Virus record (IMG/VR): IMGVR_UViG_3300031673_000143
Span: 1-42,593 of that record
Origin: a virus
Reading direction: 5' to 3' (one strand)
DNA: 42,593 nucleotides
Shown one piece after another: positions 1-42,593 of this stretch. A model generated the notes under the pieces. The model was given only the letters and a program-made list of their open reading frames with translations. It searched no databases and was not told the DNA's origin. Each line of letters opens with the position of its first letter. Positions within the stretch are counted from its first letter, which is position 1. A program made the position numbers and the translations under genes.

Positions 1-435
1 TTAACTATTTGTAATTACGAGAATTACCAGAACTCACGAAACGATAATGAAACAAAGTTGAAACAAAGACGAAACAAAGTTGAAACAAAGTTGAAACTAA
101 ACAATAATGATAATAATGATAATAATATACATCCACTACAAATGTGGATTGAGGAAAATCTGCAATCAGTAAGAAAGATATCTGCACAACTAACATCAAA
201 ACAAGCTCAGGAATTATTGGATGAATATCCCATTGAAAAAGTTAAAGAAATACTTAAAGCAATGGAAAATTATAAACCATTACTTTCAAAGTATAAATCA
301 GTCAACCTCACATTAAGAAATTGGATTAAAAGAGAAAAGGACAGAAACACAACATACACAGACCCCCAAAAAAACTATGAACCAACAAGCGATTTTATGA
401 AGGAATTATTAAAGAGACCAGCCAATGCAAAATGA
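1..435 (+). CDS. Phage replication initiator, C-terminal part (gene crosses the circular junction)
   Basis: This is the 3' part of the gene that begins at 42140; frame 1 is open from base 1 and matches the frame of the right-end copy. Joined across the repeat, the protein is about 244-247 aa. The part here has a charged repeat linker, an Asn/Asp-rich stretch (NND units), then a helical C-terminal domain (from about base 140) ending in KELLKRPANAK. The order winged helix, linker, helical domain resembles DnaD/lambda-O-type initiators that recruit the helicase; that role is inference, supported by the overlapping DnaB-like gene. The stop overlaps the helicase start by 11 bases. Confidence 0.8.
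   Translation, partial: LTICNYENYQNSRNDNETKLKQRRNKVETKLKLNNNDNNDNNIHPLQMWIEENLQSVRKISAQLTSKQAQELLDEYPIEKVKEILKAMENYKPLLSKYKSVNLTLRNWIKREKDRNTTYTDPQKNYEPTSDFMKELLKRPANAK
38..97 (+). repeat. Iteron-like tandem 11-bp repeats (candidate replication origin)
   Basis: Four head-to-tail 11-mers of type GAAACAAAGTT lie at 49-59, 60-70, 71-81 and 82-92. A degenerate unit precedes them (38-48) and a partial one follows (93-97). Eleven is not a multiple of three, so perfect repetition inside a coding region suggests selection on DNA rather than protein. Lambda and many phages carry iterons inside the initiator gene. The same array recurs at 42477-42536 in the terminal repeat. Confidence 0.6.
101..130 (+). 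repeat. AATAATGAT 9-bp AT-rich repeat beside the iterons
   Basis: Tandem AATAATGAT units directly follow the iteron array and encode Asn-Asn-Asp. The right-end copy of this region has one extra 9-bp unit. AT-rich repeats next to iterons are typical of DNA-unwinding elements; that role is inference. Confidence 0.6.
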
Positions 436-35420: not shown

Positions 35421-35978
35421 GGAGCAAAAATGGAAATAACTAAAGAATTTCTACAATCAAAAAACGCCTGTAGTCCATCTTATAGATGGGTTGTAGAAAA
35501 TAAACTCATTGGGCTTGAACACCCTGAATTTATTGCTAAACTTATGGAAAATAATCGCTTTAGCGATGCTAACTGGCTAATCACAAAACTATTTGATAAA
35601 ATGCAGTCAGTAAAATATGCAATATTTGCAGCCGAACAAGTTTTGGATATTTATGAAAAGAAATATCCAGATGACGCCAGACCAAGATTGGCTATTGAGG
35701 CAGCCAAAAAATATTTGACAAATCCCAATGCTAAAACTGCTGCTCGTGCTGCTGCTCGTGCTGCTTATGATGCTGATTCTGCTCGTGCTGCTGCTTATGC
35801 TGATGCTGCTCGTGCTGCTGCTTATGCTGCTGATGCTGTTGGTGCTGCTGGTGCTGCTCGTGCTGCTTATGCTGCTTGTGCTGCTGGTGCTGCTGATGCT
35901 GCTTATGCTGCTTATGCTGCTGGTGCTGCTGGTGGTATTAAAACATCAATCATCAATTTTGGATTGGAGTTGTTGAAA
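35392..35978 (+). repeat. Tandem duplication, unit 1 (587 bp)
   Basis: The unit starts TGACAAATTTATTTAACGA and includes the end of the 74-aa gene, the AAGGAG site and the whole first Imm-5-like gene. Unit 2 starts at 35979 with the same bases, and the start sequence recurs a third time at 36794. The units differ in length because of their Ala-codon tracts. Confidence 0.85.
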
Positions 35979-35981
35979 TGA
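35430..35981 (+). CDS. Imm-5-like protein with Ala-rich repeat tail, copy 1
   Basis: A 183-aa protein after AAGGAG. Residues 1-103 form a conserved domain: EFLQSKNACSPSYRWVVENK, SDANWLITKLFD, KYAIFAAEQVLDIYEKKYPD, RPRLAIEAAKKYLTNP. This matches the putative immunity (Imm-5-like) proteins found with polyalanine-type tails in phages and bacteria; toxin neutralisation is inferred for the family and not shown. Residues about 104-167 are (Ala)n broken by Arg, Asp, Tyr or Gly, then GGIKTSIINFGLELLK. The tail likely forms a long helix. Six substitutions separate the domain from copy 2. Confidence 0.75.
   Translation: MEITKEFLQSKNACSPSYRWVVENKLIGLEHPEFIAKLMENNRFSDANWLITKLFDKMQSVKYAIFAAEQVLDIYEKKYPDDARPRLAIEAAKKYLTNPNAKTAARAAARAAYDADSARAAAYADAARAAAYAADAVGAAGAARAAYAACAAGAADAAYAAYAAGAAGGIKTSIINFGLELLK
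35739..35930 (+). repeat. Trinucleotide (GCT/NNT) tract, 192 bp
   Basis: Every codon here is of NNT type: GCT for Ala mixed with CGT, TAT, GAT, GGT, GTT or TGT. This gives a near-continuous triplet repeat that stays open in a second frame (poly-Leu/Met). Such tracts are prone to slippage. Confidence 0.85.
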
Positions 35982-36007
35982 CAAATTTATTTAACGAAAT
36001 AATTTAA
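35978..36007 (+). pseudogene. Nine-codon remnant (MTNLFNEII) at the duplication joint
   Basis: The joint of the two units creates ATGACAAATTTATTTAACGA followed by the old 74-aa gene end and its TAA. The start matches the DUF6573-like gene (36793) and the end matches the gene at 35196, so this is a chimeric scar of the duplication. Confidence 0.6.
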
Positions 36008-36793
36008 GGAGCAAAAATGAAAATAACTAAAGAATTTCTACAATCAAAAGACGCCTGTAGTCAATCTTATAAATGGGTTGTAGAAAATAAACTCATTGGG
36101 CTTGAACACCCAGAATTTATTGCTAGACTTATGGAAAATAATCGCTTTAGCGATGCTAACTGGCTAATCACAAAACTATTTGATAAAATGCAGTCGGTAA
36201 AATATGCAATATTTGCAGCTGAACAAGTTTTGGATATTTATGAAAAGAAATATCCAGATGACGCCAGACCAAGATTGGCTATTGAGGCAGCTAAAAAATA
36301 TTTGAAAAATCCCAATGCTAAAACTGCTGATGCTGCTGATGCTGCTGCTGATGCTGCTTATGCTGCTGCTCGTGCTGCTGATGCTGCTGCTGATGCTGCT
36401 GCTCGTGCTTATGCTGCTTATGCTGCTTATGATGCTGCTGATGCTGCTGATGCTGCTGCTGATGCTGCTCGTGCTGCTGCTCGTGCTGCTTATGATGCTG
36501 CTGATGCTGCTGCTGATGCTGCTTATGCTGCTGCTCGTGCTGCTGATGCTGCTGCTGATGATGCTGCTTATGCTGATGCTGCTTATGCTGCTGCTCGTGC
36601 TGCTGCTGATGCTGCTTATGATGCTGCTCGTGCTGCTGCTGATGATGCTGCTTATGCTGCTTATGCTGCTTATGCTGCTGATGCTGCTGCTTATGCTGCT
36701 GCTCGTGCTGCTGATGCTGCTGATGCTGCTTATGCTGCTTATGCTGGTGGTATTAAAATATCAATTATCAATTTTGGATTGGAGTTGTTGAAA
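35979..36793 (+). repeat. Tandem duplication, unit 2 (815 bp)
   Basis: Same order as unit 1: TGACAAATTTATTTAACGA, AATAATTTAAGGAGCAAAA, then an Imm-5-like gene. It is longer only because the Ala-codon tract is more than twice as long. Confidence 0.85.
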
Positions 36794-36796
36794 TGA
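36017..36796 (+). CDS. Imm-5-like protein with Ala-rich repeat tail, copy 2
   Basis: 259 aa. The first 103 residues are almost the same as copy 1 (differences such as E2K, R19K, K37R). The tail runs for about 140 residues, with AADAAYAAARAA-type units, and ends GGIKISIINFGLELLK as in copy 1. Conservation of both ends with a variable middle suggests the length of the helix is allowed, or selected, to vary. Its stop overlaps the next gene by ATGA. Confidence 0.75.
   Translation: MKITKEFLQSKDACSQSYKWVVENKLIGLEHPEFIARLMENNRFSDANWLITKLFDKMQSVKYAIFAAEQVLDIYEKKYPDDARPRLAIEAAKKYLKNPNAKTADAADAAADAAYAAARAADAAADAAARAYAAYAAYDAADAADAAADAARAAARAAYDAADAAADAAYAAARAADAAADDAAYADAAYAAARAAADAAYDAARAAADDAAYAAYAAYAADAAAYAAARAADAADAAYAAYAGGIKISIINFGLELLK
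36326..36745 (+). repeat. Trinucleotide (GCT/NNT) tract, 420 bp
   Basis: One hundred and forty consecutive NNT codons, mostly GCT with GAT, TAT and CGT. The +2 frame is also fully open (poly-Leu/Met). This is the longest simple-sequence tract in the genome. Confidence 0.88.
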
Positions 36797-37358: not shown

Positions 37359-37543
37359 AATAAAAACGGTCAGCCTCGTACTTTCAGACTGACCGCAACC
37401 TAATTTGTTTCTAATATCCTGGGAGGATACTTGAAAGGACGAGCAAATATATGAAAACTTTCAGGTTTAATCAATAGAAATTTGTTTCTTAAAATATTTA
37501 TTTATAATTTTAACCACATCATTTTTGAAAGGACAATCACAAA
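37359..37543 (+). promoter_or_regulatory. Leader of the pentapeptide-repeat gene with hairpins and a mini-ORF
   Basis: The leader contains CGGTCAG...CTGACCG (37367-37395, seven-base stem) and TATCC-TGGGA-GGATA. A GAAAGGAC site is followed by a nine-codon frame (37451, MKTFRFNQ plus stop). A second GAAAGGAC then precedes the true ATG at 37544, so the leader looks like a duplicated start region. The first hairpin may end the upstream transcript. Confidence 0.4.
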
Positions 37544-38179
37544 ATGAAAACAAAAATCCAAATCAATTCCGTTTTCGGAAAACTTCTTTTTGAGTTTGAA
37601 AAAGAAGACAATACGATTAAAAAAACCCTTGTTGAGGCTATACGACAACGAGCTGACCTTCGCTCTGCTGACCTTCGCTCTGCTGACCTTCGCTCTGCTA
37701 ACCTTCGCTCTGCTAACCTTCGCTCTGCTAACCTTGGCTCTGCTGACCTTAGCTCTGCTGACCTTGGCTCTGCTGACCTTCGCTCTGCTGACCTTCGCTC
37801 TGCTGACCTTCGCTCTGCTGACCTTGGCTCTGCTGACCTTCGCTCTGCTGACCTTCGCTCTGCTGACCTTCGCTCTGCTGACCTTGGCTTTGCTGACCTT
37901 CGCTTTGCTGACCTTCGCTCTGCTGACCTTAGCTCTGCTGACCTTCGCTCTGCTGACCTTCGCTCTGCTAACACCGACAAACGCTATATACAAATATCTT
38001 GCATTGGCTCAGCTAAACGCATGACAACTTACTGCTTTGATGATGATAAAATTTGGTGCGGATGTTTCACCGGAAATTTGGAAGAATTTGAGGAACAGGT
38101 TAGAGAGACTCACGATACTAATCCGCAGTATTTAAAAGAATATTTACTTTTTATTCAATATTTGAGGGACTTGAAATGA
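37544..38179 (+). CDS. Pentapeptide-repeat protein, 211 aa
   Basis: The N-terminus (KTKIQINSVFGKLLFEFEKE) and C-terminus (MTTYCFDDDKIWCGCFTGNLEEFE, KEYLLFIQYL) belong to a known phage pentapeptide-repeat family. Between residues 37 and 141 lie 21 pentapeptides, A(D/N)L(R/G/S)(S/F), which would form a right-handed quadrilateral beta-helix. Some such proteins mimic DNA and inhibit gyrase, but the role of this family is not established. The repeats are nearly pure at DNA level. Confidence 0.88.
   Translation: MKTKIQINSVFGKLLFEFEKEDNTIKKTLVEAIRQRADLRSADLRSADLRSANLRSANLRSANLGSADLSSADLGSADLRSADLRSADLRSADLGSADLRSADLRSADLRSADLGFADLRFADLRSADLSSADLRSADLRSANTDKRYIQISCIGSAKRMTTYCFDDDKIWCGCFTGNLEEFEEQVRETHDTNPQYLKEYLLFIQYLRDLK
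37652..37966 (+). repeat. 21 tandem 15-bp units coding for pentapeptides
   Basis: The unit GCTGACCTTCGCTCT is repeated 21 times with few changes (mostly CGC to GGC or AGC, GAC to AAC). All variants keep several other frames open on both strands. The near identity suggests recent expansion or ongoing recombination. Confidence 0.88.
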
Positions 38180-41972: not shown

Positions 41973-42002
41973 TTGCATTTAAACTTAAATCTGCTATATT
42001 TG
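41973..42002 (+). promoter_or_regulatory. Bacteroidota-type promoter for the replication genes
   Basis: TTG (41973-41975), a 19-base spacer, and TATATTTG (41995-42002) match the TTG-N19-21-TAnnTTTG consensus used by Bacteroidota primary sigma factors. Transcription would start near 42009, in front of the branched leader and the initiator gene. It is the best promoter I find in the window. Confidence 0.6.
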
Positions 42003-42008
42003 GAATAG

Positions 42009-42131
42009 CAAACATTTTGAAGTAATAATTATGAATTTAAATAAAGTCCTGTATTTGAGATACCTTTCAACGCTTCCCCAGCGGTGCTTTGATTTGTTTG
42101 CTACTCATTTGCAGGACTTTTTTATTTTGGA
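42009..42131 (+). ncRNA. Branched leader RNA / attenuator with U-rich terminator
   Basis: AAAGTCCTG (42043-42051) pairs perfectly with CAGGACTTT (42112-42120), followed by a U-rich run (TTTATTTT). The 60 bases inside hold a second hairpin (CGCT-TCCCC-AGCG, 42071-42083, extendable) and a weak one at 42051-42063. Promoter, folded body and terminator-like end together look like a small RNA or a leader attenuator. It is not a tRNA: no T-loop or acceptor pattern. Confidence 0.45.
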
Positions 42132-42150
42132 AACCTCTGATGAAAAATGA
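42031..42150 (+). CDS. Possible leader peptide, 39 aa
   Basis: An intact frame from ATG 42031 reads MNLNKVLYLRYLSTLPQRCF and ends TSDEK, overlapping the initiator start by 11 bases. It runs through the folded leader RNA, so ribosome movement would change the hairpin. No convincing ribosome site is seen, and it may be chance. Confidence 0.3.
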   Translation: MNLNKVLYLRYLSTLPQRCFDLFATHLQDFFILETSDEK

Positions 42151-42593
42151 AGGATGGATTTCACTACATAGAAAAGTTCAAGAAAATTGGATATTTAAAA
42201 AAAATCGGGTTAAATCTGAATTTGAAGCATGGATTATTATGCTTTTAGAAGTCAACCACGCAGAGGAAAAAGTATTAATTAAAAACGAAATTATTATTTG
42301 TGGCAGAGGTGAATCAATCAAATCTTTAGACACCTGGGCACATATGTTTGGGTGGACAAAATCGAAAGTATTTCGTTTTTTTAAATTGTTAGAAAGTGAT
42401 TCTATGATTGTTCTAAAATCGACACACAAAACGACACACTTAACTATTTGTAATTACGAGAATTACCAGAACTCACGAAACGATAATGAAACAAAGTTGA
42501 AACAAAGACGAAACAAAGTTGAAACAAAGTTGAAACTAAACAATAATGATAATAATGATAATAATGATAATAATATACATCCACTACAAATGT
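42140..42593 (+). CDS. Phage replication initiator, N-terminal part (continues at base 1)
   Basis: The N-terminus WISLHRKVQENWIFKKNRV, EAWIIMLLEVNHAEEKVL, ICGRGESIKSLDTWAHMFG and WTKSKVFRFFKLLESDSMIV is the winged-helix domain of phage replication initiators (100 residues, 42140-42439). It is followed by the iteron-coded linker. The frame runs off the window and resumes at base 1 without interruption; there is no stop. Its ATG lies just after the leader RNA terminator, suggesting regulated read-through. Confidence 0.82.
   Translation, partial: MKNEGWISLHRKVQENWIFKKNRVKSEFEAWIIMLLEVNHAEEKVLIKNEIIICGRGESIKSLDTWAHMFGWTKSKVFRFFKLLESDSMIVLKSTHKTTHLTICNYENYQNSRNDNETKLKQRRNKVETKLKLNNNDNNDNNDNNIHPLQM
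42440..42593. repeat. Right copy of the terminal direct repeat
   Basis: It repeats bases 1-145 with one additional AATAATGAT unit. The iterons are at 42477-42536. Confidence 0.85.

Follow-up and report, generated by a model that had tools for sequence, protein, structure and literature searches.

The question raised by this locus is what a structured leader between a promoter and the replication genes of a phage might do, and whether it would do so as RNA, as a peptide or as a gene of its own. The stretch of DNA analyzed here (the window, all 42,593 nucleotides of the IMG/VR record IMGVR_UViG_3300031673_000143) had been described in a first-pass annotation as carrying a TTG-N19-TATATTTG promoter in front of the replication genes, a 9-bp stem around 60 nt followed by a U-run just 5' of the initiator ATG, and a 39-codon frame through the leader. 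An attenuator, an antisense-type copy control and a small RNA had been offered as readings, with a covariance search of relatives as a check. The promoter was confirmed to the base, and the hairpin, the U-run and the frame lie where they had been placed.

On the plus strand, the -33 element TTG (41973-41975) is followed after 19 nt by the -7 element TATATTTG (41995-42002), in line with the Bacteroidetes promoter consensus TTTG/TAnnTTTG (PMC6847099). Since the Flavobacterium johnsoniae map (PMC6847099) places the final G of the -7 element at position -5, transcription is predicted to start at ~42007. The 9-bp stem is formed by AAAGTCCTG (42043-42051) and CAGGACTTT (42112-42120), with 60 nt between them (inverted repeat I1). 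Folding lengthens it to 11 bp, giving a terminator-like hairpin, H2, with a 5' arm at 42043-42053 (AAAGTCCTGTA) and a 3' arm at 42110-42120 (TGCAGGACTTT); the region 42040-42130 folded better than all 200 of its dinucleotide shuffles (z -3.9). The U-run occupies 42118-42123, and the initiator ATG follows at 42140, about 17 nt 3' of it. Thus, a G+C-containing stem and a U-run lie between promoter and ORF (42043-42123), which is the layout of an intrinsic terminator or attenuator. Within H2, comparison with a relative (L035, see below) suggests a small inner hairpin, CGCT-(TCCCC)-AGCG at 42071-42083, which differs from the minimum-energy inner fold and whose stem is identical in L035, with another loop (ACCCC). 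The window element was listed neither by a sigma-70 promoter scan nor by a simple terminator scan, because Bacteroidota promoters differ and the H2 loop is long. Rfam 15 gave no match at the gathering score for the window and 18 loci of the family described below, and at E<=10 the best sub-threshold hit on the window element reached 18.2 bits against a cut-off of 65.3.

The gene that begins at 42140 encodes a DnaD-like helicase loader/replication initiator (phrog_2514, E 2.8e-27), whose ORF runs on the plus strand to 42593 and continues at window positions 1-435; a DnaB-like helicase gene comes next. The two record ends (1-150 and 42438-42593) overlap by ~155 bases and differ by one 9-bp repeat unit; therefore, a circular or terminally redundant molecule is probable, with the initiator gene spanning the junction. 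The DnaD-like gene contains iterons and an AT-rich tract: five 11-bp iterons (GAAACAAAGTT-like) and then three AATAATGAT repeats were seen at 42475-42574, where they probably mark a lambda-O-type replication origin. At the corresponding position in L035 the iteron is another one (CGACCAACAA-like). Elsewhere in the window, two adjoining paralogous genes (35430-36796) have C-terminal halves made of long alanine/aspartate/tyrosine-rich repeats, with another frame also open as long Leu/Met-rich ORFs. In addition, a pentapeptide-repeat-like protein (ADLRSADL repeats) is encoded at 37544-38179, the repeats being fewer in the L035 homologue (102-617).

A feature missed earlier is that the predicted transcript opens with ~18 nt able to base-pair with the loop of H2. 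The 5' segment, K (42006-42024, plus strand, core AGCAAACA at 42007-42014), and the H2 loop segment, K' (42085-42103, plus strand, core TGTTTGCT at 42095-42102), can pair at 17 of 19 positions, a complementarity seen in part as repeat I2. K begins at the predicted transcript start, and no hairpin of its own (H1) is evident for it in the window. Taken alone, the window sequence gives the pairing only moderate significance: p 0.03-0.05 for the 8-bp core counted from the predicted start, p 0.04 for the best 18-mer and, as far as 500 shuffles can resolve, p 0.004 for the duplex energy. L035, the only close DNA relative found, carries the same promoter and RNA before a different gene; there, the 5' arm is altered and 17 of 18 positions still pair (p 0.005). 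It is this comparison, together with the family described next, that makes the proposed K-K' pairing in the window convincing.

The same layout in different letters was found upstream of other initiators (L019, L037, L099). Two scans of IMG/VR, which specified the promoter, the distance and the terminator end and did not ask for pairing, yielded 122 hairpins. A K-K' score of at least 16 was reached by 47% of these with their own partner, against 5.5% when K and loop were cross-paired, and 57 hairpins were regarded as strong members and 65 as weak. An ORF start lay within 60 nt 3' of the U-run in 55 of the 57 strong members (median distance from the U-run, 11 nt) against 19 of the 65 weak ones. 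Strong pairing thus predicts a near ORF start, a feature that lay outside the selection. At least 28 of the 55 downstream ORFs fall into one similarity cluster, that of replication initiators; profile matches comprise DUF6291, Lin1244_N, DnaD-like loaders, O-like initiators and primosomal proteins, as well as HNH/NUMOD4 endonucleases, ERF and others. Leaders of this kind also stand in front of NUMOD4/HNH endonuclease genes (L166, L182, L200, L387, L396), so that the element is not confined to replication initiators. An H1 stem surrounds K in 55 of the 57 members, and in several subfamilies the two 7-nt loops are perfectly complementary, e.g., GGGU[GUUGCAG]ACCC with GUG[CUGCAAC]CAC in L160. The 57 members hold 48 different K sequences with the pairing kept; the K-K' helix makes a pseudoknot, and the subfamilies have little sequence in common. 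A looser scan of all ORF starts, with neither promoter nor U-run specified, returned 206 cases where ~156 were expected, too many chance matches for that scan to be used alone. As a grouping based on sequence comparison, a kissing-leader RNA family of Bacteroidota phages is well supported, and the window shows its layout: a Bacteroidota promoter, K at the 5' end, K' in the hairpin loop, a U-run and a near ORF start.

Covariation was examined in one subfamily, whose 12 sequences share an 8-bp K-K' helix; there, 15 of 17 pairs had changes on both sides and 63 doubly changed cells were counted, against 17.8 after shuffling and 4-6 with slid partners. The 100% pairing of K and H1 in this set is partly by construction, because both were used to find members; the inner H2 stem, unused in member selection, covaries at four of four pairs. 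Outside K, L155 and L175 share 99% identity; within it, two of the eight positions differ, and both changes are compensated. L170 and L257, whose backbones are 90% identical, have different letters at 57% of their K positions. When every close pair is taken together, the rate of change in K exceeds that of the backbone only modestly (0.24 versus 0.16 at 80-90% identity). The K-K' pairing is kept in L035 and in the family despite sequence change.

As an independent check, the analysis turned to named Bacteroidota phages whose initiators are of the DUF6291 type. The element stands before the initiator operon in Flavobacterium phage 11b (K CGGGCAGG), in the Flavobacterium phages elemoA/D (K of the GAGAGC type), in the Lillamyvirus/Muminvirus/Hattifnattvirus group (K GTGAGACG) and in Cellulophaga phi19:3 (K CTCTCACA), and that group has a second one, GTCGTCG, before an HNH gene; it was absent from Riemerella phage RAP44. 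In these cultured phages it occupies gaps between annotated genes. The prediction made from the family thus held in 11b, elemoA/D, phi19:3 and the Lillamyvirus/Muminvirus/Hattifnattvirus group.

The best explanation, to which we give a probability of about 0.6, is a cis-acting attenuator leader of replication and early operons whose 5' end would kiss, or form a pseudoknot with, its own terminator. The promoter, the hairpin and the K-K' complementarity are kept through changing letters, as is the position before initiators, as far as comparison of the loci can tell. In a set partly selected for T6, the 8 nt behind the stem average 6.1 T, compared with 2.6 when matched positions ahead of other ORFs are counted; since most members that were not selected for T6 have the U-run too, the hairpin is taken as a terminator and H2 would terminate transcription in vivo. 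A good U-run is absent in L056 (at 3837), L051, the second copy of L182 and L260. The ORF starts a median of 11 nt after the U-run, a gap too short to hold a second promoter. Hence the gene would be read through the hairpin, and among the three readings offered earlier the attenuator is therefore the best supported. Transcription would start at ~42007, making K the first nucleotides of the RNA, and K would pair with K', which lies in the loop of the next hairpin; H2 and its U-run would act as an intrinsic terminator ~17 nt 5' of the initiator ATG, leaving the initiator to be expressed by readthrough only. In most relatives, with K in its own H1 hairpin, the contact would be a loop-loop kiss, and otherwise a pseudoknot. 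Because K' would be out of the polymerase while the 3' arm of H2 is still to be made, K-K' pairing would be timed to influence the termination decision, and presumably it alters the frequency of termination. The cis pairing and a competing partner would most likely have opposite effects, as in ColIb-P9 (see below), and the released leader could be that competitor. Most speculatively, this leader, or some other molecule that carries an identical K, would compete in trans for K/K', and the initiator would be throttled as transcripts accumulate, with K setting the specificity; against action in trans stands the lack of enrichment of K elsewhere in the same contigs (figures below). We regard the element as a structured leader that would attenuate a replication initiator. 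Copy control of the classical antisense type found no backing, as the opposite-strand -7 motif was not enriched in and behind the elements (6 found, 7.0 expected); plasmid copy control is resembled through the kissing loops before a replication initiator.

Several other readings were weighed against this one. Possible, though clearly behind it, is a leader acting on translation or mRNA stability, in which the pseudoknot would set access to the start site (as in ColIb-P9 repZ) or shield the 5' end of the mRNA, and the U-run would be merely the A/U-rich start region of Bacteroidota mRNAs that lack a Shine-Dalgarno sequence. The short, regular distance to the ATG would fit, as would the observation that translation starts in Bacteroidota are tuned by structure (PMC6847099), while the T content and the U-runs of most members not selected for T6, given above, speak against a mere A/U-rich start. 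A third copy of K also bears on this point. In L051 (3590-3720) and L182 (7340-7440), which lack the U-run, a K of 7-8 nt lies at the 5' end, its complement in the loop, and K again at -9 of the ATG, which argues for translation rather than termination in these two; a K copy lies directly before or overlaps the start in L160, L176, L240 and L264. In all six, K' may also block translation. As a general feature the third copy was rejected, being restricted to these six and absent from most members and from the window. Somewhat more doubtful is a small RNA gene, in which an RNA of ~115 nt from its own promoter and terminator would act in trans through the K' loop and the gene behind would be served mainly by upstream transcripts. 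Termination at the U-run would indeed release such an RNA, the terminators are good, and K differs between copies within one contig (L166, L056, L387). A possible orphan copy was also seen on the minus strand of the window (37367-37451, duplex p 0.002), with TATATTTG at 37451-37444, K near 37443, a terminator-like hairpin at 37396-37367 and a U-run behind, and with no same-strand gene following. We consider this second kissing element tentative: K-K' has one mismatch, only ~6 bp of the pairing lie behind the predicted start, and the first K bases precede it. On the other side, a free gene would hardly be expected to sit as close to an ORF start as the median of 11 nt seen with 55 of the 57 elements, and K was not enriched elsewhere in the same contigs (within ~10 kb, 54 copies found versus 52.2 expected).

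An immunity of the P4 kind, in which the leader would be processed to an RNA that terminates the transcripts of incoming phages, appears unlikely. It shares the logic of a replication operon leader with pairing segments and termination (P4 in PMC4825925), K types vary between phages, and the six members with a second target behind the hairpin recall seqC; this second complementary downstream target is clear only in these six, missing in most members and absent from the window. A search for tyrosine integrases (PF00589) covered 33 records (~1 Mb), either carriers of the element or part of its search set, and found none, against 14 of 14 control genomes; therefore, lysogenic immunity is unlikely. 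Far less probable than any of these is attenuation by a leader peptide. The 39-codon frame (42031-42150, plus strand) crosses H2 and overlaps the initiator start, and L035 carries a similar frame; however, the two differ by five nonsynonymous codon changes and one synonymous, giving no sign of purifying selection on codons, which argues that the RNA is kept rather than the peptide. Leader frames through the hairpin are also not enriched in the family (4 of 57, versus 14% in shuffles). A small protein gene of 39 codons was rejected on the same two grounds, and the frame is probably incidental.

Beyond the attenuator itself, we put forward as a tentative idea, clearly less probable than attenuation as such, that each phage, and each copy, has its own self-complementary kissing address, through which a leader, once terminated, would act back in trans on leaders that share it. 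If so, lytic Bacteroidota phages would possess a copy-number-like control of replication that needs no antisense gene, and the addresses would offer a basis on which co-infecting phages could be compatible or exclude one another. A leader RNA placed ahead of the initiator, and shared by phages that have hardly any sequence in common, would amount to a general point of control, and loops that are variable and yet self-matching would make a natural set of orthogonal attenuators and give a clear hypothesis on competition between phages.

Several known systems share parts of this design. The put RNAs of HK022 are antitermination RNAs, i.e., short structured phage leaders that act on their own polymerase. 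The present leader is likewise short, structured and of phage origin, whereas the put RNAs are not known to have a variable kissing pair or a terminator of their own. In P4, the CI RNA with seqA, seqB and seqC offers an untranslated leader of phage replication genes with pairing segments and premature termination, but P4 is temperate and its CI RNA arises by processing and works as an antisense RNA on two targets (PMC4825925). Here, by contrast, the complement lies in the terminator loop itself, a second target occurs in six members only, and no tyrosine integrase was found (PF00589 in 0 of 33 records). The antisense attenuators of pT181 and pIP501 need a counter-transcript, and their 5' segment competes with a terminator arm, whereas here the 5' segment pairs with the terminator loop. 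They are alike in attenuating a rep gene with a specificity set by kissing loops, and swapping of the loops is reported to yield orthogonal attenuators (PMC3753616). The IncI-alpha/IncB leader (ColIb-P9 repZ; papers cited in PMC10724649) pairs a 5' hairpin loop over a long range with a second hairpin before the replication initiator, through kissing complexes whose specificity lies in a few loop bases. The ColIb-P9 repZ system involves the leader peptide repY. Long-range loop-loop pairing before a replication initiator is likewise found here, but control in the plasmid system is translational and involves an antisense RNA as well as a leader peptide, whereas here a terminator-like U-run follows the second hairpin. 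Neither an antisense RNA gene over the first hairpin (opposite-strand -7 motif 6 versus 7.0 expected) nor a leader peptide through the second one (4 of 57 versus 14% in shuffles) was apparent. For ColIb-P9, pseudoknot formation is reported to compete with antisense binding (papers cited in PMC10724649). Membership of the IncI, P4 or pT181 families was rejected, because their defining features are lacking here or require an antisense gene that was not seen. No phage leader of this pseudoknot, kissing and attenuation design was found described in the literature searched, most subscription journals and all preprints being outside that search. The kissing-leader family is thus apparently undescribed: its parts are ordinary, and it is their combination that appears new, recurring across many phages and tracking replication initiators.
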